Part shown: in pieces, positions 23,636 to 42,412 of the stretch
Layout of the letters: the number at the start of each line of letters is the position of its first letter
Numbering within the stretch: position 1 is the first letter of the stretch
The notes under the pieces: generated by a model
Seen by the model: only the letters and a program-made list of their open reading frames with translations
Databases searched by the model: none
Told to the model about the DNA's origin: nothing
Position numbers and translations under genes: made by a program
IMG/VR virus record: IMGVR_UViG_3300025626_000045
Coordinates: 1 to 42,412 of that record
Length of the DNA stretch: 42,412 nucleotides
Origin: a virus
Strand: one strand, 5' to 3'

Positions 23636-26600
23636 ATGGCAATTAGATTTTTAAACAGTCAGTCTATTGATGGAGAGCTTACGGTAACAGGAAACGTAGG
23701 TATAGGAACTACGAGTCCAGGTGCAGCCCTTACTGTTGGAGACTCGACTTCTACTGGAAATCATATTTTAGTTGAGGGTAGCTCTTCAGATAATACATAT
23801 ACAGTTTTTGAAGGTAAAAGAAAATACCCTAAACTTATATTAAACGATACTATCGGTTCATCATTTTCACTTTGGAATTTAGGCAATACATTAAGATTTG
23901 GAACTAACGTTGGTTCTGCTACAAACGCAGCTTGGTATACTAAATCAGGTAATGCAGCAGATGTTATATTTAATGGTAACGTAGGTATAGGAACTGCGAG
24001 TCCATCATTATCTTATGGTGGAAAAGGTTTACAGATTCAGAATACAGATACTGCTGGGTTGCGCCTTACTGACACAACTGGTTCTGACTTTGATATATCT
24101 GCTAGGTCTGGTGATGTTCTTTTATATGAAGGAAATGGAAACCCTATTAGAATTGGCGTTGGTGGTAATGAAAAAATGAGAATTACTAACGATGGTCGTG
24201 TAGGTATAGGAACTACTAGTCCAGATAGTGAATTGCATATTGCAAGTGGAAACCCTGTATTAACATTGCAGGATACAAATTCAAACGATCCAAATGCTGT
24301 AAAAATAGAATTTACTGATCAAATTGATGATGTACATGCAGAAATTGGATTGACGGCTGGAAATTCAGGTGCTTTAAATATTAAAAATAATTACAAGCCT
24401 ATTGATTTTTATACTGGAACGTCAGGTACTTCAACCCTAGCAATGCAGATTGATGATAATGGGTTTGTTGGTATTGGAATTACGAATCCTACTGCCACAC
24501 TTCATGTAAATGGTGGCTTAAGGGTTGCCACAGTAACTGAAGCGACAACATATGTAGGAGATAAGTTTTTAGTTTCTGACGCTGAAAATGTTAAGTATGT
24601 AGATGCAGTACAGTTAGCTAGTCTTATTGACCCGTATATTACTGTCGGGGGAATTACAACCGCAAACGGAGGTACGTACATAACTACTACAAACTCAACA
24701 GGCCCTACGGTTACAATAAACCACGATAATACAACTAGAACTGATACTTTAGTTGGATCTTCTCCAGCATATAGTTTTATAGCAGTCGAAACTATAGATA
24801 CCAATGCAACTGGACACATTACTGGGGTCAACAGAAAAAGTTTTAATGTACCTATTCCAATATCTTATAATTGGAGATTACAAGGAGATACTGGACTTGC
24901 TACTTTTATATCAAGTGGTGCTACTGTAGACATAGCTGGGGGGACTGGAATATCTACCGCTGGGGGATCTACCACTTTGACAGTAAACCTTGATGATACT
25001 GCGGTAACTGCAGGTGCTTATACATCAGCTAACATTACAATAGATGCACAGGGTAGAATAACTGCTGCTGCTAATGGTAGCGGAGGAGGAGGTAAGTTCG
25101 TAGATGGTACAGACACTAACGATGCAGTATACACCACAGGTAACGTAGGAATAGGAACTACGAGTCCTAATTCTAGGTTGGAAGTTTCTGACACCTTTCC
25201 TGTGCTGAGACTAACAAATGAATCTGTCACTTCTACAATAGGAGACGTTGTTTCTTCTATTGAGTTCTATAACTCAGACACTTCAGGTAATTATCCTGCT
25301 GTAGGGGCAGCTATTAAGTCAATAAATGAGTCTACTTTTGGAAACGCTAATGCTTTAGGATTCTTTACTAATTCAGATTCTGCCAGTGAGACTGAATATA
25401 TGAGGATTACATCTTCAGGATTAGTAGGTATAGGGACTACGAGTCCATCAGAAAAATTACACGTCAGTGGAAACGCTACGGTTACAGGTAGCTTATTCGT
25501 AGGTCCTCAAATTACTGCAAGAGCTGCCACAACACAATCATCTATATTAAATTTAGGACAAGACAGAACAGGAGATGGTTATTCTTATATAGACCTGATA
25601 GGAGATGCTACTTATTCAGATTATGGACTTAGAATTATTAGAAATAATACAGGAGCTAACACAACTAGTGCAATTCAACACAGAGGGACAGGTGAATTTA
25701 ATTTAAAGGCTACAGAAGCTGCACCTATTACCTTTGGAACTACTAATACAGAAAAGATGCGTATTGCCGCAGACGGCAACGTAGGTATAGGAACTACTAA
25801 TCCTGCACACGAACTCGATGTGCAAGCCACTACCGATCCTTCTATTAGAGTACGTTCTACAGGTACAGGAACTTCAGACGATGCATTGATAAGATTACAA
25901 ACTGCAGGGTCAACTACTGCAAGTAATTACATATTTTTTGGAGATAGTGTTGATGCTGATGCTGGGTGGATTAGATATCGTCATTCTGAAGATTCTATGC
26001 AGTTTCGTGTGAACGCAGCTGAACGAATGCGTATTGCATCAACAGGCAACGTAGGTATAGGAACTACGAGTCCAAGTTCAGAATTGGAAATAGTAGGATC
26101 AGTATTAGTTTCAGATGATGGCTCAGATGATTTTGTAAAGCAAAGCGTAAGTGGTACTACATCCACTTTAGCATTTGGAAATACTGAAGCAAGTGGAGGA
26201 GTTGCTAAATGGCAGTATAACCGAAGTAATGGTAGCTTTTCTGGATTTGTAGGTACTGCAGCAGCCACAGAGTTTATGACTATTAAACCCTCTGGTGATG
26301 TAGGTATAGGCAATACTAATCCCATAGCTAAGTTATATGTAGATGGTGGTGCATTAGGAGGTACCGCAGGAGATGATGTTGCTTTGCTTAGTTTAAAAAC
26401 TACTAATACCAACACTGATACCTTACAATTTACATCCGAGAGATTAACTACAGGAACAAATTTTTTAAGTGCAGCACAAAGAATACAGAGAAAGGTAGAT
26501 AGCACCTTAATGGGGTATATTCAGTTTGGAGCACATACTGATGATCTAATTACGTTTGGTGAGGGTAGTACTGAACGAATGCGTATTGATGGGGATGGTA

Positions 26601-28144
26601 ATGTAGGTATAGGAACAACGAGTCCTGGACACCTACTTGATGTACAAGGCACTTCCGATCCTTCTATTAGGGTAAAATCTACAAGTACAGCAGGTACAGC
26701 TGATGCTATACTAAGACTAGAGATTGGAGGAACTACTGCAGCTAGTATGATTGTATTTGGGGATTCCGCATCTAGTTCTGCAAGTGATATTAGATATTCA
26801 CATGCTAACGATAGTATGGATTTTGATATTTTAGGTTCTACCAAGATGCGTATAGAATCATCTGGAAATGTGGGTATAGGTATAACAAGTCCATCACAAA
26901 AACTTCACGTAAGTGGTAACGCTAGAATAACAGGTGCTTACTATGATTCAAATAATCTACCTGGTACATCAGGACAAATATTGTCATCTACCGCAACAGG
27001 TACATCTTGGATATCAGGCGGTGGTGGTGGTGCTACAAGTTTAAATGGATTAAGCGATGTATTAATAGACGGCTCATCTTCTTATCTTGTTAATGTACCA
27101 ACTACATTAAGCGGCAATCCAGCAGACAATTTAGTGATTGGAAATGATGCTGGAAATTCATTAACGACTGGTCAAAGAAATGTTTTCTTGGGGTCAGGTG
27201 CTGGAGAAAGTGCTACTAATTCAAGCTATGGAGTAATGATAGGGTGGAATGCTGGAGCAAGTACTATTGGTAATAGTTCTTCGGTTATTATTGGAGATCG
27301 TGCTGCAACTGTTTCTACTGGTATGGCTGGTGGTATAGCAATTGGCGGCAGAGCATTATATAATATGTCTGGATATTCTGGACAAGAATCTACAGTAGTA
27401 GGTTATCAAGCTTGTTATTATACTACAGTAAATAATAATCACACTGCATTCGGTGCCAAAGCTTTAAATAGGCAAACTAATGGATCATTAAATACTGCAA
27501 TTGGCTATAGATCTTTATTTACTGGAACTAGTTTTACAGACAATGTAGCTTTAGGTTTCTATTCTGGTTATAATGTAACTGGGAGCGGCAATACCTTAAT
27601 TGGAACTAATAGCGGAAATACTGGTACAAATAATCTAACATCTGGATCTAACAATACATTAATAGGAAATGATTCAGCGGCAAGTTCAGCGACTGTAAGT
27701 AATGAGTTTACACTTGGTAATTCAAGCATAAGTACTCTAAGGTGTGCAGTTACATCTATTACATCATTATCTGATGAAAGAGATAAGGCAGAAATAAAAG
27801 ATCTAACATATGGATTAGATTTCATTGATAGTCTACAGCCAAGAGAGTTTGTATGGAATAATCGCCCTGAGATTAAATTAGAACAAGTTAAAGACGAAAA
27901 TGGGAATGAGGTATTTGATGAAAATGAAGAGCCAGTTTATGAAGAAGTACAATTTCATTCTAGTAATAAGGGCAAAAAAGATTTTGGATTTGTAGCACAA
28001 GAGGTGCAAGAATTAGATGATGATACATTAAGGCTTATATACAATTCAAATCCAGATAAGCTAGAAATGAGTTATGGCAAACTTGTTCCTATATTAGTGA
28101 AGGCAATACAAGAATTAAAGGCAGAAATAGAAGCATTAAGATAA
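23636..28144 (+). CDS. Large tail fibre/spike with S74 intramolecular chaperone domain
   Basis: The product is 1502 residues and is a likely host-recognition fibre. After an N-terminal anchor (MAIRFLNSQSIDGELTV) there are eleven short GNVGIGTTSP-type repeats up to about residue 1085, separated by beta segments. Residues about 1150-1360 form a second repetitive region (NLVIGNDAGNSL, NVFLGSGAGE, NTAIGYRSL, NTLIGTNSG) like YadA-type left-handed beta rolls. Residues 1379-1502 are a Peptidase_S74 chaperone: SDERDKAEIKDL supplies the Ser1379/Lys1384 dyad, and self-cleavage just before Ser1379 would release the C-terminal piece after trimer folding, as in phage endosialidases and T5 L-shaped fibre. 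The end is a helical coil (LVKAIQELKAEIEALR). Confidence 0.92.
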   Translation: MAIRFLNSQSIDGELTVTGNVGIGTTSPGAALTVGDSTSTGNHILVEGSSSDNTYTVFEGKRKYPKLILNDTIGSSFSLWNLGNTLRFGTNVGSATNAAWYTKSGNAADVIFNGNVGIGTASPSLSYGGKGLQIQNTDTAGLRLTDTTGSDFDISARSGDVLLYEGNGNPIRIGVGGNEKMRITNDGRVGIGTTSPDSELHIASGNPVLTLQDTNSNDPNAVKIEFTDQIDDVHAEIGLTAGNSGALNIKNNYKPIDFYTGTSGTSTLAMQIDDNGFVGIGITNPTATLHVNGGLRVATVTEATTYVGDKFLVSDAENVKYVDAVQLASLIDPYITVGGITTANGGTYITTTNSTGPTVTINHDNTTRTDTLVGSSPAYSFIAVETIDTNATGHITGVNRKSFNVPIPISYNWRLQGDTGLATFISSGATVDIAGGTGISTAGGSTTLTVNLDDTAVTAGAYTSANITIDAQGRITAAANGSGGGGKFVDGTDTNDAVYTTGNVGIGTTSPNSRLEVSDTFPVLRLTNESVTSTIGDVVSSIEFYNSDTSGNYPAVGAAIKSINESTFGNANALGFFTNSDSASETEYMRITSSGLVGIGTTSPSEKLHVSGNATVTGSLFVGPQITARAATTQSSILNLGQDRTGDGYSYIDLIGDATYSDYGLRIIRNNTGANTTSAIQHRGTGEFNLKATEAAPITFGTTNTEKMRIAADGNVGIGTTNPAHELDVQATTDPSIRVRSTGTGTSDDALIRLQTAGSTTASNYIFFGDSVDADAGWIRYRHSEDSMQFRVNAAERMRIASTGNVGIGTTSPSSELEIVGSVLVSDDGSDDFVKQSVSGTTSTLAFGNTEASGGVAKWQYNRSNGSFSGFVGTAAATEFMTIKPSGDVGIGNTNPIAKLYVDGGALGGTAGDDVALLSLKTTNTNTDTLQFTSERLTTGTNFLSAAQRIQRKVDSTLMGYIQFGAHTDDLITFGEGSTERMRIDGDGNVGIGTTSPGHLLDVQGTSDPSIRVKSTSTAGTADAILRLEIGGTTAASMIVFGDSASSSASDIRYSHANDSMDFDILGSTKMRIESSGNVGIGITSPSQKLHVSGNARITGAYYDSNNLPGTSGQILSSTATGTSWISGGGGGATSLNGLSDVLIDGSSSYLVNVPTTLSGNPADNLVIGNDAGNSLTTGQRNVFLGSGAGESATNSSYGVMIGWNAGASTIGNSSSVIIGDRAATVSTGMAGGIAIGGRALYNMSGYSGQESTVVGYQACYYTTVNNNHTAFGAKALNRQTNGSLNTAIGYRSLFTGTSFTDNVALGFYSGYNVTGSGNTLIGTNSGNTGTNNLTSGSNNTLIGNDSAASSATVSNEFTLGNSSISTLRCAVTSITSLSDERDKAEIKDLTYGLDFIDSLQPREFVWNNRPEIKLEQVKDENGNEVFDENEEPVYEEVQFHSSNKGKKDFGFVAQEVQELDDDTLRLIYNSNPDKLEMSYGKLVPILVKAIQELKAEIEALR
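23690..26893 (+). repeat. Eleven dispersed 30-bp coding repeats (GNVGIGTTSP units)
   Basis: Near-identical DNA units reading GGTATAGGAACTACGAGTCC or close variants recur inside the fibre gene, starting near 23690, 23977, 24197, 24470, 25138, 25427, 25778, 26047, 26300, 26600 and 26864 (starts approximate except first and last). Spacing is irregular (about 200-670 bases), unlike CRISPR. Such homology can mediate gain or loss of fibre segments by recombination. Confidence 0.85.
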
Positions 28145-28582: not shown

Positions 28583-30793
28583 ATGATTCCAACAAATTCA
28601 AGTGCCACCACAAATGGATGTGATAATATATCTTCTAATTGTGTAATATGGCAAGGCCCTGATATTTCTTGTATAGATTTATGTAACGGTGATACAATCT
28701 CTGAGGTAGTATTTAAATTAGCAACTGAAGTTTGTAGTTTAATAACAAATGGTGTTTCTGCAAATCCAAGCCTAACAGGTCTGGACTTAACATGTTTAAA
28801 CATTAGAGGTGTAACACCAACTGAACTAGTTCCTGTTCTTCAGGCAATGATAGTTCAGATATGTAATAATTCAACTACAACAGGAACTCCAGTTCCTACT
28901 GCAGCAGATCTTCTTACATTACCAACTTGCTTACAATATACTGATTCAAACGGTAATCCTGTTACTCAAGTTTATTTAGAACAGTATGCTATATTAACTG
29001 CACAAAAAGTATGTAGTAATCTTGAAAGGATTATAGTTATTGAAGCTTCAATAGCTACGATTAATACTAGACTGAACACTATTGAAGCTTGTGTATTTCC
29101 AGGAGGGGTATGTGCTGTAGGAAGTTCAAGTGAAGTGCAGATTATACCAACTTGCGTTAGTAATGTTGGTCAGCTAACAAATGTATCTGTTGTTGTATCT
29201 GCTTTAGAAATTGCATTTTGTGCTTTACAAACTGCTGTAGGAACACCTAGTTTAATTAATAATGCAATATCACAATCAGTTATTACTGGTTCTTATGCAA
29301 CATTAACATCATCAAATGTAACATATAGTGGAATAGCAGGATGGAATAATACACCTACTACATTAGCACAATCAGTTCAGAATGCTTGGGTTGTTATAGA
29401 TGATTTATACACATCAATATCAAGTATACAGTCAACTTGTTGTCCTACAGGATGTGATTCTGTTATATTTAATTATCTATCATCTGGTGTTGTTAATTCA
29501 ACAGGTGTTATAGAAGGTATACTTTTTGACTTTACAAATTCTGTAATACCATCAGGTTATTTAGATACTACAGATCATTCAATTATAACGTTAACAGATG
29601 CTGATGGAAGTTCTGTAACTACAACATTTAGCGTAGCTAACTTACAGAACTCAGGTTCTGGTTTAACAGTTAGTACTGGAACTTTAAATACTTTCCAAAA
29701 CATTAGCATTACAGTAGACTTTTCAGTAACTGATGCTATAGATACATGTGAGTCAATACAAAGCAGTGTTGTAAATGGTTTAATAACATGTCCTACAATG
29801 CTATTAACTGGAATAACAACAACAGGTGTAACAGTAAACTTTACTAACGTATTGGGTATAACTGCTGTATATACAATAGATATACTAGATGGATCTACTG
29901 TTGTAGATACATTTGTAATTAATTCACCTAATGCTTCACCATCTCATTCATTTACAGGGTTAAGTCCTAATACAAATTATATAGCCAGACTTACTGTAGC
30001 AATTGGTGGAGTAACAAAAGTATGTACAAATACTGCTGCCTTTCAAACAGTAAGTAACGCTTTACCTTGTACAAATGGTATGGATGTAGTATTTGTACTT
30101 GATTACACTCAAAGTATGAGTGGTGAGATTACAACAATTCAAAATGATATTCCTGGATTAGTTGCAGGTATAGTAACTTCTTCTGGTTCTAATGATTATA
30201 GATTAGCATTGGTTACTGCAGATGAGTCTGGTTCAGTTACACCAGATTATGGAAGTTGTATAGATTATACTGACTTACCTTTAAATCAAAGATTATCTTT
30301 ATTAGGAACAGATAATAATTATATATATACTACTTTCTGGGAAATATTCCAAAATAATAACTCATCAAGTTTTACAACAGCATTAAATTTATTAAATGGT
30401 GGAGTAGATACTACATGTATAAACATTGGAGATGGTAATGGAGTGGCTGAACCAACAGACTATGCTGCTCAATTAGCTGTAGCAGGCGGTTCTGTTCCAG
30501 GTGCGTTTAGAGCTAATGCAGCTAAATATGTAGTTATTATTACAGATCAATTACCAGGAGGTATATCAGATAGTTTTAACGCTGTAACATGGGCTGGTAT
30601 TCAGAATATGATAGCTTATGCAAATACTAACGGAATTAAGTATGTTATATGTGGGGTAGGATCAACTTTAGGTGCAACTATAAATGGTGTTTACATTCAA
30701 CCTTGGATAGAATTAGCTCAGCAAACAGGTGGTGCTACTACTACTTCTTACTTACCTACAACAATAAGTAGTGTAATAACAGGAACTTGTTAA
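28583..30793 (+). CDS. Virion surface protein with FN3 and von Willebrand A domains
   Basis: The product is 736 residues. The N-terminal part (NCVIWQGPDISCIDLCNGDT then ISEVVFKLATEVCSL) looks like a conserved anchor in aquatic Bacteroidota phages. The middle is Ser/Thr-rich. Residues about 400-490 form a fibronectin type III-like domain (ITTTGVTVNFTNVLGITAVY ... FTGLSPNTNYIARLTV). From about residue 497 a vWA domain follows: MDVVFVLDYTQSMSG gives the metal-site motif D507-x-T509-x-S511, with YVVIITDQLPGG as the later core strand. vWA domains bind protein ligands through a metal ion, so an adhesive or receptor-binding role is expected. It stands in the fibre region, with its own candidate promoter. 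Confidence 0.83.
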   Translation: MIPTNSSATTNGCDNISSNCVIWQGPDISCIDLCNGDTISEVVFKLATEVCSLITNGVSANPSLTGLDLTCLNIRGVTPTELVPVLQAMIVQICNNSTTTGTPVPTAADLLTLPTCLQYTDSNGNPVTQVYLEQYAILTAQKVCSNLERIIVIEASIATINTRLNTIEACVFPGGVCAVGSSSEVQIIPTCVSNVGQLTNVSVVVSALEIAFCALQTAVGTPSLINNAISQSVITGSYATLTSSNVTYSGIAGWNNTPTTLAQSVQNAWVVIDDLYTSISSIQSTCCPTGCDSVIFNYLSSGVVNSTGVIEGILFDFTNSVIPSGYLDTTDHSIITLTDADGSSVTTTFSVANLQNSGSGLTVSTGTLNTFQNISITVDFSVTDAIDTCESIQSSVVNGLITCPTMLLTGITTTGVTVNFTNVLGITAVYTIDILDGSTVVDTFVINSPNASPSHSFTGLSPNTNYIARLTVAIGGVTKVCTNTAAFQTVSNALPCTNGMDVVFVLDYTQSMSGEITTIQNDIPGLVAGIVTSSGSNDYRLALVTADESGSVTPDYGSCIDYTDLPLNQRLSLLGTDNNYIYTTFWEIFQNNNSSSFTTALNLLNGGVDTTCINIGDGNGVAEPTDYAAQLAVAGGSVPGAFRANAAKYVVIITDQLPGGISDSFNAVTWAGIQNMIAYANTNGIKYVICGVGSTLGATINGVYIQPWIELAQQTGGATTTSYLPTTISSVITGTC

Positions 30794-34984: not shown

Positions 34985-37900
34985 ATGGCTAAAAGTAGAT
35001 CTTCTAAAAATACACAACCACAAGGATCATCTTCAGTAAACACAAATGGTTTTACTAAAGGTATGAATAAAGATGTTGCACCTTCATTTGAAGGGCCTCA
35101 ATCTTGGTGGCATGCTCGTAATGCAGCAAATAACTCAGAAGATGGTGATCTAGGTATGATAGGTAATGAACCATCTAACTTGCAGTGTGGTGTTATTCCA
35201 TATACTGTAATTGGAGCTATACATAGATATGCTGATGAATGGATAATATATTCTACAGATGATATTAATTCTGAGATAGGAAGGTTTGATGATAGTCAAT
35301 GTAAGTATGAAACTATTGTAAATGATAAGTGCTTAAACTTTAATAGAAAGTTTTTAATAACCGGAGCAGCAAAAGAAAACTTTGATTGTACATGGCAGGT
35401 ATACTGGGATGATGCTAATAATCCATCTCGTACTTTAAATATTGATAATGTACCATGGAATCAATTTCAAGTATCTGGTCCTGAAATTAATGGCTCTGAT
35501 TGTGTAGAATATGAAGATGTAGTACCAAGAAGTTTAAACTGTGAAAAGATTAGACTTGCCCCATTGGTAGATACACCATGTATTGTACTATCTAAATCAG
35601 TTGACTCAGGTATAATTGCTAATGGAGCTTATCAAGCTTTTATAGCATATGTAGAAAATGAACAAAAAGTTACTGATTACATAGGTGTTTCAAATATACA
35701 AACCATATGGAGTCATCTTGGTACAAGTGGATCTTTAGATATTGAAGTTAGTAATTTAGATAAGGAATATGAATACTATGAACTTGTAATATTAAGAAGA
35801 AACCAAGGTCAAACTTCAGCTAAGAAGATAGGTATATACAGCGTTCAACAAAAAAATATAAACATTGATTTTATAGATGAGTCTTTAATTTCTGTTAATC
35901 TAGTAGAAATACCATTACGTAGTCCTGCTTATGAAAAGTCTGAATCAATGTTTGTTGTTAATGACTGGCTAATACGTCAAGGTCCTGTTGAGCAATTTGA
36001 TTTTAATTATCAACCAATAGCAAATGAAATAAAAGTAAACTGGGTAACTAATTCTTTAAGCTCAACTTATTACTATAAAGGAGGTAATAAATTTAACTTT
36101 TTACGTGATGAGCAATATGCATTCTTTATAAGGTGGATATACAATACAGGTGAAAGGTCTTCTTCTTATCATATTCCAGGTAGAGCACCGGAACAGTTTA
36201 CTACACCTCTAGGAGAAGAATATAGTGAAGACGAAATAATATATGGTGATAATGTATTAAGCCCAAATGGTGATCCGTTATTTAAAGTATATAACACAGC
36301 TTCAGTAGAAAATTTGCTTGGAAATACTGTACTTCCTGATGATAGTTTATTAACATCATCTGGTAAAATGGGTTATTGGGAATCAACAGAAAGATATCCA
36401 AATGAACCTGATATATGGGGTGACCTATGCGGAAAACCAATTAGACATCACAAAATGCCTTCTGAAGAGACAGGACCAACTCTTCATTTATCAAATACAG
36501 GCGGTGATAATATAAACATATTAGGTGTTCAATTTAAAAACATTGGCAGACCTAAGTTTAACGATGGAACTTATATACCTAACGTTGTAGGATATGAGAT
36601 ACTTAGAGGTTCTAGATTAGGTGCAAAGTCAATATTAGGAAAGGGTATATTTAGAAATATGCGTGAGTATACTATTCCTAATGGTGAGAATTTAATTGGT
36701 GGAAATGTACAAGGTTTATATCCTAATTATCCGTATAATGATTTAAGAGCTGATGTATATTTTCATGATGGTAATGCTAATTCAATTCATAGAACTGAGG
36801 GTTGTGATACTTATTCACAATCAATAACAAACTTTAAACCTTTAACAGGATATTCTAAAAGTGTATTTAGTTTTTCATCTCCTGATTTAATGTTTACTAA
36901 ACCATTTCTGAATGCTTATGAAACAAGGATTTATGGAGAAGTAAGCGGTAATTCTAGTGGTTACTTTAAAGCATCAGAAGATCATCCTCAATTTAAATTA
37001 CTAAGAAATGGAGCTGCAATAGTATCTTCTATTATTGGTGTTGGTTATGCTATGCATAAAGTATTAGGAACAAGAAGCAGAACTATAGAAGGTGCTAGAG
37101 GTAATTATCAAGCAAATGATTTTATTATAACTTTTGGTAGCGGTTTTTCGACAGGTGCTGGTTTAAACACTGCAGCAAATGCAGCTGGTGCGGGAGCTGC
37201 TATTACTGCACAGACAGCAGCTCAAATTATATTAGACGAATTACTTGATGATTTTATTGGTTTAGCTGATCTTTATGTAGGTGGTACAGGAACACAGGCA
37301 AAAGATATTATTACTGCTACAACTCAAACAGCACTGGGTGTTCTACCTGGTGTATTAGGAGGTACAACAACTATTACACAATCTAATGATTCATCAGAGT
37401 CATCATTACCATCGATTGTAAGACTATTTGTTGGTAGTGTATTGGCTAAAACTAATATTGCAATAGGTGGAGATGAGATATTAGAATTAATTTATAACTT
37501 AGTTAATAAATCTGATTTTGTATTTAAGTATAATTCTTATGGATTTTTTAATTCATTTGATAAAAATAACACGGGATTATTTAGAATTAAAAATACAGAT
37601 TCAAATTACTTAGGTCAATCATTTCAGTCATTTGATAGCGGAAAATATAAAATCAATAATTTATTTAGACCATCTACTGTTGCTGTTTCTTTAAATAAAG
37701 ATATTGCTGATCCATCTATAATTGATACATCAAGATTTACAATTGGTGGAGATGTTAATACAAATGGTATAACAGATGATTATGGTGATGATCTTTTAAC
37801 TGACCCATCAACTAAACAAAAAAGAACTATATCAGCTTATTATGGCGCTCTTAAATTTAATTTTGATAACCAATATGGTCAGCTATCTGGTATAAAGCAA

Positions 37901-40900
37901 GTTCAAATGAGAGGTTGTGTTCAGCTTTTAGATGATACGAAACCTGATGAATATTTATATACTAGTGATCCAATATTTTCTGGTGATACTTTTGTATCTA
38001 GATATACTGAAAAAGTTATAATGCCAATATTTGCACAATATTTATTAGGACAACCTGATGAGTTTACTTATGATTACTCTCAACATGTTAATATACCTTA
38101 TCCTAGATTTTGGCTAAACTCTCAAAAATTTGATATGAGTGTTTTGGCTAGTGAAATTTCAACTTTAACTTTTGCAGTTTCTAGTGAATTAGATGCTAAG
38201 TTTCCTAGTGATTTATTTTATTTAGATAGAGGGGAAAATAGTTGCGGTTCAGGTTTAGGTGCAATCTTTGGTACTAATGGTGATCCTAACCCTAAGTTTT
38301 CTATGAGATACGCATATATGTATTCTCATGTTAATGGTATATTAGACTTTTTTGTTGAGTCTGATATAAATTTAGATCAGAGAGATTGGGAAGATGAACC
38401 CAAAAAGAAAATATATAGTATATATGACAATAATGATATAGATGAACTTTTCCATGCTAAGATAGAAAAGGATGATAACTTTTATAAGTACGATGAGTCA
38501 TTAAGTACAAGCAAGTTTCCTACACAACTATCTTCATTTGGTGAAATACAACCTTTAGACTATGACCCTTACACGGCAGAGTCTTGTTTTGTAAATTACC
38601 CTAAGAGACTAATATACTCTTTACAAGCTCAAGAGGAATCTAAAAGAGACTATTGGAGAGTGTTTTTAAATTTTAATTACAGAGATTTTAAAAATGAGGT
38701 TAGTGTTATTAAGCCAATTAATAAAAGTGGTGCTATAATATTCTTTCCTTATCTATCACCTCAAATGTTTCAAGGACTTGATACATTAAAAACACAATTA
38801 GATACTAAGCTAACAATTGGTGATGGTGGTTTATTTAGCCAACCATTTCAAAATATAGCTAATGCAGATATATCAAATGAATATGGTTCATGTGAAAGTC
38901 TAAGGGGTGTTATAAATACTCCATTAGGATTATTCTTTATATCACAACAACAAGGAAAAATATTTCAATATGCTGGTCAAGGTTTAAATCCGATATCTAA
39001 TAATGGAATGAAATGGTGGTTTGCAAAATACTTACCATCAAAGTTTGTTAAACAATTTCCAGATGCTGAGCATTCTGTTTGGTCAGATAACCCAGTAAAT
39101 GGTGTTGGCTGTCATGTTATATATGATTCAGTAGATGATATTGTATACTTCATGAAGAAAGATTATATATTAAAATCTGAATATATTGCTAATGCAATAT
39201 TTACAGACAGTTTAAGTAAACCTGTATCTATTAAATTATTAAATGTATATACTCCTGTTGACATTGGTGATCCTTTATATTTTGATGATTGCTCATGGAC
39301 TGTAAGTTATGATCCTAAATCAAAAGCTTGGATTTCTTTTCATGATTGGCATCCTGGTTTAGCTTTACCAAGCATTAATCATTTCTTTACAACTAATAGT
39401 TATACTGATTTAGATGCTCCTTATTGTCCTACTGGTTATACTTATAATTCTACAAATGGTTTATGTGAGTTAAACGTTAACGAAACAAGTTTATCAGAAG
39501 TAACAATAGATGATATTGCAGCTACAGTTACGGGAGGACCAGATGCGTGTTTAATTGATATTGTAGTGGCAATGGATACTTCTTTTTCTACGGGATCTGG
39601 TCCAGGTTCTGCTAGGGAAGCACAGCAGACTTGGTTAACTAGTTTTTTAAATGATTCTAATATAGTAAATTTAATGGCTGCTGATCAGTTACAAATTGGA
39701 TTTGTATCTTGGGGTATTACAAGTGTAACATTTAATATGGATCCAGGTGCAGTTACAATGAGTAATACTGTAACAGAATCAGAAGTTAAAGATTTTTATG
39801 ATGATAATTGGCTTAATAGTTCTGATACTGATATAGCATTAGGATTACAGGTTGGTAATACAGTAATTTCTGATGGTGCTAATTCTACATTGGGTGACAG
39901 AACAAGTAGTCCTTATTACAAGTCTATAATAATACTTGTTACTGATACTATAACAGCACCAGCTACAAATGTTGGTATACCATATACTTCAGTTGGTGAT
40001 GGTACTGGCCCAAGTTATCAAGTTGTATATGCAATGTTTTGTGGTGCAACTAGTGTTGATCCACCTAATGCTAACATATTAGATTACATATCTAGATCTT
40101 CAGGACCAGTAAATGTTGATCCTTATCAATTTGGAATTAACGCATCTTTTCCTCCAACATTTGGATTAGCTGCAGATGCAATTTCTAATAGTGTATGCAA
40201 TGACGTGTATTCATGCAGCTGTCCAACAGGCTATACTTTAGTTTATCCTGATTTAATTAATTCAACATATACGTTATCTTCAGGTACTTGTGATGACATT
40301 AATCCACCAATATGCAGAAGAGTTACTTGCGAATGTCCTACTTCTACAGTACCTAATATTCCAGTTGTAGAATCAGGTATATGCCCTGACACTGCACCTT
40401 TAATATTTCAAATAGGTAACCCAGACTTTGTACAACCGGATCCACGTAGGTGTAGCTATTCTGTTTATATTAGTACCCCTGCTAACTTTACATACGGTGG
40501 TATATGGAGGCATAATGTAAGATGTGACTCATTTGCAAATTATTACGGTAATGATTATCCTTGGGAAATAGATTTAATTTCAAATACAGGACAATCAGTA
40601 AATACAATAAGAAGCTTTGAATATCAACTTGAGACTTATGTATATAAAGGAGATCCTCAATATAATATGTGTGGTGGAGATAAATGGGAAGATTTAGATT
40701 TTAACTTTGATGAATCTATCATATATAACAATGATCAGGTATCAGGTTTATTATTACTTAATAAGCAACCTGCAAATGAACCTTGGAAAAACTTAAATTA
40801 TCCAATTATTAATTTTAATAATATTGATATACTAGTTTCTAAAGTTGAACATAAATTTAGATTTAATCAGTTTTGGGATATAACAAACGATAGAGGTGAA

Positions 40901-41113
40901 TTTACTAATGCAGAGCAGCCTATATTTAATACTCAATCTAATGGTTACATAAGACCTTTAAATGAAATAAATCTTAACTATCAAAAGAATGCTACTCAAC
41001 GTAAGAAGTTTAGACATTATTCTAATAACTTAATTTTACGTAGAAATGTATCAGGATCTAGAAAGATGTTATTAAGATTGAATAATACTAAACTTTTACT
41101 ATCACAGAGATAA
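34985..41113 (+). CDS. Giant tail muzzle/stabilisation protein with inserted vWA module
   Basis: At 2042 residues this is the largest gene. The N-terminus (GFTKGMNKDVAPSFEGPQSW then HARNAANNSEDGDLGMIGNE) and long beta-propeller-like body match what I know of the crAss-like stabilisation or muzzle protein (related to P22 gp10). An Ala/Gly-rich stretch near 676-800 (GAAIVSSIIGVGYAMHKVLG; AANAAGAGAAITAQTAAQII) might contact membrane. Between NHFFTTN (ends residue 1471) and GGIWRHNVRCDSFANYYG (from 1838) sits a 366-residue insertion: CPTGYT at 1481, a vWA domain with the metal motif D1531-T-S1533-F-S1535 (AMDTSFS), and a second CPTGYT at 1746. The protein would close the tail opening and contact the cell. 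The next gene is coupled by TAATG. Confidence 0.85.
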   Translation: MAKSRSSKNTQPQGSSSVNTNGFTKGMNKDVAPSFEGPQSWWHARNAANNSEDGDLGMIGNEPSNLQCGVIPYTVIGAIHRYADEWIIYSTDDINSEIGRFDDSQCKYETIVNDKCLNFNRKFLITGAAKENFDCTWQVYWDDANNPSRTLNIDNVPWNQFQVSGPEINGSDCVEYEDVVPRSLNCEKIRLAPLVDTPCIVLSKSVDSGIIANGAYQAFIAYVENEQKVTDYIGVSNIQTIWSHLGTSGSLDIEVSNLDKEYEYYELVILRRNQGQTSAKKIGIYSVQQKNINIDFIDESLISVNLVEIPLRSPAYEKSESMFVVNDWLIRQGPVEQFDFNYQPIANEIKVNWVTNSLSSTYYYKGGNKFNFLRDEQYAFFIRWIYNTGERSSSYHIPGRAPEQFTTPLGEEYSEDEIIYGDNVLSPNGDPLFKVYNTASVENLLGNTVLPDDSLLTSSGKMGYWESTERYPNEPDIWGDLCGKPIRHHKMPSEETGPTLHLSNTGGDNINILGVQFKNIGRPKFNDGTYIPNVVGYEILRGSRLGAKSILGKGIFRNMREYTIPNGENLIGGNVQGLYPNYPYNDLRADVYFHDGNANSIHRTEGCDTYSQSITNFKPLTGYSKSVFSFSSPDLMFTKPFLNAYETRIYGEVSGNSSGYFKASEDHPQFKLLRNGAAIVSSIIGVGYAMHKVLGTRSRTIEGARGNYQANDFIITFGSGFSTGAGLNTAANAAGAGAAITAQTAAQIILDELLDDFIGLADLYVGGTGTQAKDIITATTQTALGVLPGVLGGTTTITQSNDSSESSLPSIVRLFVGSVLAKTNIAIGGDEILELIYNLVNKSDFVFKYNSYGFFNSFDKNNTGLFRIKNTDSNYLGQSFQSFDSGKYKINNLFRPSTVAVSLNKDIADPSIIDTSRFTIGGDVNTNGITDDYGDDLLTDPSTKQKRTISAYYGALKFNFDNQYGQLSGIKQVQMRGCVQLLDDTKPDEYLYTSDPIFSGDTFVSRYTEKVIMPIFAQYLLGQPDEFTYDYSQHVNIPYPRFWLNSQKFDMSVLASEISTLTFAVSSELDAKFPSDLFYLDRGENSCGSGLGAIFGTNGDPNPKFSMRYAYMYSHVNGILDFFVESDINLDQRDWEDEPKKKIYSIYDNNDIDELFHAKIEKDDNFYKYDESLSTSKFPTQLSSFGEIQPLDYDPYTAESCFVNYPKRLIYSLQAQEESKRDYWRVFLNFNYRDFKNEVSVIKPINKSGAIIFFPYLSPQMFQGLDTLKTQLDTKLTIGDGGLFSQPFQNIANADISNEYGSCESLRGVINTPLGLFFISQQQGKIFQYAGQGLNPISNNGMKWWFAKYLPSKFVKQFPDAEHSVWSDNPVNGVGCHVIYDSVDDIVYFMKKDYILKSEYIANAIFTDSLSKPVSIKLLNVYTPVDIGDPLYFDDCSWTVSYDPKSKAWISFHDWHPGLALPSINHFFTTNSYTDLDAPYCPTGYTYNSTNGLCELNVNETSLSEVTIDDIAATVTGGPDACLIDIVVAMDTSFSTGSGPGSAREAQQTWLTSFLNDSNIVNLMAADQLQIGFVSWGITSVTFNMDPGAVTMSNTVTESEVKDFYDDNWLNSSDTDIALGLQVGNTVISDGANSTLGDRTSSPYYKSIIILVTDTITAPATNVGIPYTSVGDGTGPSYQVVYAMFCGATSVDPPNANILDYISRSSGPVNVDPYQFGINASFPPTFGLAADAISNSVCNDVYSCSCPTGYTLVYPDLINSTYTLSSGTCDDINPPICRRVTCECPTSTVPNIPVVESGICPDTAPLIFQIGNPDFVQPDPRRCSYSVYISTPANFTYGGIWRHNVRCDSFANYYGNDYPWEIDLISNTGQSVNTIRSFEYQLETYVYKGDPQYNMCGGDKWEDLDFNFDESIIYNNDQVSGLLLLNKQPANEPWKNLNYPIINFNNIDILVSKVEHKFRFNQFWDITNDRGEFTNAEQPIFNTQSNGYIRPLNEINLNYQKNATQRKKFRHYSNNLILRRNVSGSRKMLLRLNNTKLLLSQR

Positions 41114-42412
41114 TGGAGAATAAAAAAAGCATAGGATTACCTGGTGGACCAAATGAGTTTTTAAAAGACATAACTCAGTACATATCTATAGAAGGGTACA
41201 AGCGGTATAGTAAAGATATAAACAATCCGGTTAATATCATTGAGTCAGGTTCAATAACAATGGAGGATGTAGATTTCCCTGTTATGGGGACTGATAACTT
41301 AGGTAACAGTCAGATGATGATGCCTGGTAATAATTATCAGTTTCCAGGAGATAGGGTGTTTGAAGTACCTATGGCACAGACAGGTTATGAAGTTCCAAAA
41401 AGAAATGGTGTTAGACTAAACTACGATGATCAAGGTAAAGTAATTGGTGAGTCTTCTCATATAATGAAAACCGAAACTGATGGAAAAGGAAATTGGTTTT
41501 CTTTCCCCACATTATTTCAAGATGAAGATGGTACTTGGGATACTACTTATGAAAAACAAATCCAGTTAAATGAAAAAAACTGGATGCCAGCTTATAAAGA
41601 AGCACAGAGAAGGGGAGAAGTTATTGAGTTCGGTACAGATAAAGAAGCTGCTATTAAATTTGGAGAAGGTTCTTGGAAACCTAAAATGAAACGTGGTGGA
41701 GGTTTATTAGATAAAACTATGGAATGCAATAACTGTGGTTGGTCATGGAAAGCTGCAGATGGTGGAGCTGATGTATCTACATGTCATAAGTGCGGTGGTA
41801 GTGCATTACCTAAAGCTCAAGATGGTAAAGAAGCTACAGCTAATACGTTTGGTAATATGGCACATAATCTAATAGATTATTTTACTCCTATAGATAATTC
41901 AAATCCAAATAGAGTAATAAGCAATTATAAACCCAGCATAAGTAAAGATAAAGCAGCAAAATACTACACATATAAAGGACTTATGGATGATGTAGTTAAT
42001 AACCTTACTGATCAGAAAACCATAGATAGAATAAATTCTACTATAAGCAACCTAAAGCAAAAAGCTCCGTCTGAAAAATACCTTGTTGAAAAAATAGGTA
42101 TAAACAGTAATACAAAAGTTAATCCTAGTTTTGAAAGTCTTTATAATTATTTTAAAAACGTAAGAAAAATAAATAAATCTCAACAGATGGGTTCTATAAA
42201 CTTAGGACACTATAAAGTGGATGCAGGTGAAGATGAGAATGGTAAATATATAAGTATTTTTGATACATATGATTGGAACATTTTAGATAAATTTAAACCT
42301 AAAGGTTGGGAAATATACGACAGAGTATATGAGAAGGACTTTAAATACGGTAGTTCTGTACCTAAAGCTCAATTTGGTAGGGAAACTTATACTAGAGAAG
42401 AAAGTGTAGCAA
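41113..42412 (+). CDS. Partial internal-virion/cargo-type protein with zinc ribbon
   Basis: Starting in the stop of the muzzle gene (TAATG at 41111-41115), the frame is open to the window end: 433 codons without a stop. It begins MENKKSIGLPGGPNEFLKDI. Residues about 110-195 carry GESSHIMKTETDGKGNWFSF then PTLFQ, and AYKEAQRRGEVIEFGTDKEA, GEGSWKPKMKRGGG, a block I associate with large phage internal-virion proteins. A zinc ribbon follows (C205-x2-C208, C224-x2-C227; ECNNCGWSWK ... TCHKCGG). Three [MK]AQ-x-G motifs punctuate the chain. In crAss-like phages the gene after the muzzle encodes proteins carried in the tail and ejected into the cell, so that role is inferred. Confidence 0.72.
   Translation, partial: MENKKSIGLPGGPNEFLKDITQYISIEGYKRYSKDINNPVNIIESGSITMEDVDFPVMGTDNLGNSQMMMPGNNYQFPGDRVFEVPMAQTGYEVPKRNGVRLNYDDQGKVIGESSHIMKTETDGKGNWFSFPTLFQDEDGTWDTTYEKQIQLNEKNWMPAYKEAQRRGEVIEFGTDKEAAIKFGEGSWKPKMKRGGGLLDKTMECNNCGWSWKAADGGADVSTCHKCGGSALPKAQDGKEATANTFGNMAHNLIDYFTPIDNSNPNRVISNYKPSISKDKAAKYYTYKGLMDDVVNNLTDQKTIDRINSTISNLKQKAPSEKYLVEKIGINSNTKVNPSFESLYNYFKNVRKINKSQQMGSINLGHYKVDAGEDENGKYISIFDTYDWNILDKFKPKGWEIYDRVYEKDFKYGSSVPKAQFGRETYTREESVA

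Follow-up and report, generated by a model that had tools for sequence, protein, structure and literature searches.

A candidate exchangeable binding head with a predicted vWA fold in the tail muzzle protein of a crassvirus

The muzzle gene and its insertion

The sequence examined here is an IMG/VR virus fragment, and the window, by which we mean the whole stretch of DNA analysed, spans 42,412 nt. Near its end lies a long gene for a tail muzzle protein that carries an in-frame insertion, and a second, separate vWA protein is encoded further upstream. The features discussed below are as follows.

34985..41113 (+): muzzle protein gene, a 2042-aa ORF with a PHROG virion structural match, collinear with crAss001 gp44
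39398..40495 (+): 366-aa insertion, aa 1472-1837, absent from the muzzles of L043, L059, L070 and the outgroups
39398..39547 (+): N-terminal Cys-rich CPxGY module, first CPTGYT at 39425-39442, with invariant Cys; retained without the vWA domain in relatives
39548..40198 (+): predicted vWA domain, aa 1522-1738 (AlphaFold2 pLDDT 91, Foldseek matches in the PDB, Pfam VWA in relatives)
39575..39589 (+): MIDAS motif DTSFS (D1531, S1533, S1535); Asp and first Ser in 51/51, second Ser in 50/51
39827..39829 (+): MIDAS Thr T1615, in 49/51
39944..39946 (+): MIDAS Asp D1654, in 50/51
40199..40495 (+): C-terminal Cys-rich module, second CPTGYT at 40220-40237, with invariant Cys; adjoins all alternative domains
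28583..30793 (+): second tail-cluster protein, 736 aa, with a C-terminal vWA domain separate from the insertion; Pfam VWA match and invariant metal-site Asp

The muzzle ORF is uninterrupted by stops. The genes directly upstream encode CrAss_Ring_2 and CrAss_Ring_1 proteins (Pfam, above cut-off), genes for a crassvirus capsid protein and a P22-like portal also lie upstream, and the order of ring-protein genes before and a cargo-like gene after is that of a Crassvirales muzzle. In PHROG the protein matches virion structural families, and a muzzle profile that includes outgroups aligns collinearly with crAss001 gp44 over 1235 columns (hhalign 93.9%, E 1.5e-7); the match is weaker when outgroups are excluded. 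PDB sequence searches with the muzzle as query returned nothing useful, and gp44 was not among the top Foldseek matches of a partial muzzle model (pLDDT 71). Together, the upstream ring-protein genes, the PHROG families and the collinear profile alignment argue that the window protein is a Crassvirales muzzle and that the label holds.

An earlier note on this DNA, made from the letters alone, had described a 366-residue insertion between the motifs NHFFTTN and GGIWRHN, containing a D-T-S-F-S metal site and bracketed by two CPTGYT segments. These coordinates are exact: NHFFTTN occupies aa 1465-1471, GGIWRHN begins at aa 1838, and precisely 366 residues lie between them in frame, with CPTGYT at aa 1481 and aa 1746 and DTSFS at aa 1531-1535. 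The boundaries are real, since relatives with the same flanks join them by a few residues (NHFFTTKTRLSDGTGGIWRHN in L059, NHFFTTKSNNDPAARNIGSIWRHN in L043).

Other parts of the tail region also vary. Muzzle aa 691-800 (window about 37055-37384) form a Gly/Ala-rich, hydrophobic stretch that is hypervariable between close relatives, with a pN/pS of 0.54 and raised pS; one idea is that it is a membrane-active segment. Read by eye, the cargo-like gene that follows (41113-42412, +) holds divergent inserted modules between PKAQ.G linkers, and its counterparts in L055 and L060 carry differing HExxH-type segments followed by LysM/YkuD-like parts common to both. The tail fibre gene (23636-28144, +) ends in an S74 chaperone, and its end region is divergent between the window and L031, as it is in other close pairs.

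Predicted fold and metal site

An AlphaFold2 model of the window insert, computed with 40 relatives, gave a pLDDT of 91.2. Foldseek comparison of the insert model with the PDB returned 245 matches at E<=0.001, foremost among them vWA proteins: the SpaC pilus adhesin, the byssus protein PTMP1, ANTXR2, integrin I domains and VWF A3. Pfam found no vWA match in the window insert alone; among relatives' inserts it found VWA_2 in 13 of 41 (best 2.7e-6) and VWA in 9. The MIDAS pattern DxSxS...T...D is complete in the window, and all five residues occur together in 49 of 51 relatives. Fold, metal site and relatives' Pfam matches thus bear out the vWA domain proposed in the earlier note.

Both ends of the vWA domain carry an invariant Cys, and by analogy with VWF A domains these residues could form a disulfide. 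When the last 873 muzzle residues were modelled, the fold of the insert was retained and both junctions fell below pLDDT 50, which is consistent with a hinged domain. Sushi-, EGF- and chitin-binding-like matches of the Cys-rich modules were weak, and we did not accept them as family assignments.

Occupancy of the site across relatives

Our first set comprised 73 related IMG/VR loci, most with about 375-454 residues over the segment, flanks counted. The segment is almost absent in L043, L059 and L070, reduced to a single Cys module in L068, and made up of Cys modules with no vWA domain in L019, L046, L048, L052, L054 and L072. Two further scans brought the collection to 87 distinct inserts. A vWA domain is present in 66 of these, a PA14-like domain in six, both together in one (L073, with a degenerate MIDAS) and another domain of about 400 residues in two (L171 and L173); the rest are Cys-only (five), a single Cys module (one) or empty (six). 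The name "PA14-like" rests on Pfam matches below threshold in L053, L067, L073, L160-L162 and L164 (best E 0.0045, 17.2 bits, against a cut-off of 24), and these domains had no PDB match. The domain of L171 and L173 had no convincing match in Pfam or the PDB.

Cys modules border all of the alternative domains and therefore look like a mount. Outside muzzles we found no copy of the module: 76 of 80 matches fall within muzzles and have both flanks, and the other four are cut at contig ends. A scan of bacterial genomes detected it in one contig only, the 114.7-kb L079 of a Pseudomonadales MAG, which is probably a misbinned phage carrying the same muzzle module.

The site is also empty in the isolates Cellulophaga phage phi4:1, csAssE-Sib and Leptolyngbya phage Lbo-JY46, whose muzzles are nonetheless homologous to that of the window over most of their length. 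The best isolate muzzle match (L075, 5602-10566) belongs to a phage whose recorded host is the cyanobacterium Leptolyngbya boryana; the other isolates matched have Bacteroidota hosts. Close to the muzzle gene of the gut phage csAssE-Sib is a gene annotated as Ro sixty-related (L076, 10422-12056). Ro60 proteins also contain a vWA domain.

We built a muzzle tree without the insert; it is a quick tree with long branches flagged. The site is empty in the outgroups and in the deepest row of the ingroup, which makes a derived origin of the insert the most likely. On this tree the vWA label requires six changes, at least four of them forced by well-supported branches, which argues that the domain was gained or lost several times. 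The segment is thus absent from outgroup crAss-like muzzles and from several ingroup members and is not an integral part of the muzzle throughout the family, in agreement with the earlier note. These comparisons indicate that the insertion site is a general exchangeable slot.

Swapping and rate of evolution

The muzzle cores of L001 and L008 are 96% identical and their vWA domains only about 45%. Each domain has a closer counterpart in a more distant phage: that of L008 is 77% identical to the domain of L005 (cores 67%), and that of L001 is 82% identical to the domain of L004 (cores 73%). Because the vWA domains of phages with nearly identical cores each lie nearer to those of more distant phages, the modules have been swapped horizontally. 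L024 and L018 likewise share 92% of the vWA domain and 73% of the core. At the DNA level, windows of L001 and L008 are 90-99% identical outside the vWA region and 63-68% within it; apart from this region, only part of the next gene drops comparably.

Across ten close pairs, pN/pS was 0.48 for the vWA domain, 0.14 for the Cys modules and 0.10 for the core. The loops vary most in length on the MIDAS face of the domain, and among close pairs 16% of columns differ in the MIDAS-face loops compared with 10-11% in the core and opposite face. Substitutions in the vWA pairs and in the patch at aa 700-800 showed no striking adenine bias of the kind that marks targets of diversity-generating retroelements. 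The vWA domain therefore combines modular exchange with faster evolution than the rest of its protein, as phage receptor-binding modules do, and the pattern reads as that of a binding head subject to shifting selection.

A second vWA protein

The 736-aa protein matches Pfam VWA with an E of 0.0032 in the window and 2.7e-6 in L028, and it also has an fn3-like stretch. Most relatives retain its vWA domain, both metal-site Asp residues being invariant in 56, and in most close pairs this domain is more divergent than the remainder of the protein. Only the N-terminal part matches in L042, L047, L052 and L066, where the C-terminus is replaced. The gene adjoins that of the S74 tail fibre, and a search of the isolate phage collection found no counterpart of the protein. 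This group of phages thus seems to have vWA heads in two positions.

Discussion

Altogether our results make it probable that the insertion is an exchangeable, probably metal-dependent head on the tail tip that binds a receptor or surface. We envision that the two Cys-rich modules, probably stapled by disulfides, form a fixed mount, and that the vWA domain between them would offer its variable loops and a MIDAS-bound metal ion to a ligand that sits on the host envelope, the capsule or a nearby surface. If six muzzle copies are present per tail, as in crAss001, six heads could ring the tail end and provide avidity near the ejection gate. Outward display is likely, since six heads of about 40 kDa would hardly fit in the channel. 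The earlier note had read the insertion as an adhesion device on the tail nozzle that might contact the host surface during DNA ejection. This reading is supported in part: swapping, loss, replacement, fast evolution and diversity of the metal-face loops point to surface-binding-like behaviour, and we infer adhesion, ligand, metal, orientation and timing. Several relatives do without the vWA domain, so the muzzle can dispense with it, and the principal receptor-binding protein may be the S74 tail fibre.

Other surface roles, too, would be compatible with rapid evolution and swapping. The heads might bind extracellular polysaccharide, particles or a mucus-like matrix and concentrate virions near hosts rather than choose the host, as the PA14-like replacement domains, the weak chitin-binding- and EGF-like resemblance of the Cys modules and the adhesive matrix proteins among the fold matches could suggest. 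However, the swaps between near-identical phages and the variation of the metal face resemble receptor-binding proteins, and the tail tip would be an odd location for mere loitering; we consider this alternative possible, if unlikely. The probable receptor- or surface-binding head could also act in the manner of an integrin I domain, with ligand capture at the MIDAS pulling on the propeller and helping to open the gate, and thus couple recognition to ejection within one protein, which we regard as rather improbable. We similarly see little prospect for a structural or regulatory role, in which the domain clamps muzzle subunits to one another or to the fibres in a metal-dependent way and so tunes stability or gate opening. 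Protein-protein assembly is also mediated by vWA domains and the second vWA protein gene lies beside the fibre gene, but relatives with an empty site lack any such clamp, unrelated folds can replace it and it evolves far faster than the core it would hold. An assembly artefact or functionless, decaying sequence is scarcely credible given dozens of independent contigs with the module in frame, the conserved MIDAS and a pN/pS well below 1.

The closest structural reference is gp44 of the Bacteroides phage crAss001 (PDB 7qok, 7qol and 8ckb), which resembles the window muzzle in family, gene neighbourhood and collinear profile. Unlike the window protein, gp44 has 1371 residues and no inserted module; we read the equivalent position by eye, from sequence patterns, because hhalign misaligned around the site. 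A fold search with the model of the muzzle C-terminus returned mostly vWA matches and offered no placement of the site on gp44. In crAss001 the muzzle forms a gated hexamer, and the authors of its structure propose that the distal crass domain contacts the cell; they also note that muzzle length varies through insertions in the crass and IG2 domains (PMC10172136). The window insertion, by contrast, appears to be located further along, in the propeller-type part.

SpaC, integrin I domains, VWF A3 and mussel PTMP1 share the vWA fold and MIDAS residues of the insert. These adhesins are, however, cellular proteins with 11-19% identity to it, whereas the window domain is inserted in a phage tail protein with Cys-rich modules on either side. 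Other phage proteins likewise have a vWA-like fold, one of them annotated as a virion structural protein, of Pseudomonas phage PaMx28; their overall similarity is weak, and no muzzle was among the matches listed. Literature searches for vWA domains with crAss-like phages or phage tails, in which journal coverage was incomplete, found no precedent for such a domain in a phage tail nozzle. What is new here is a slot on the crassvirus muzzle for a vWA domain that we take to be an adhesin.

Among the tail proteins of crassviruses the muzzle is a hallmark, and little is known of the way in which these phages recognize cells. Empty, Cys-only, vWA, PA14-like and mixed slots provide a natural series for asking whether the muzzle shares in host choice, and near-identical phages that differ mainly in the head and one downstream gene offer ready pairs for comparison.
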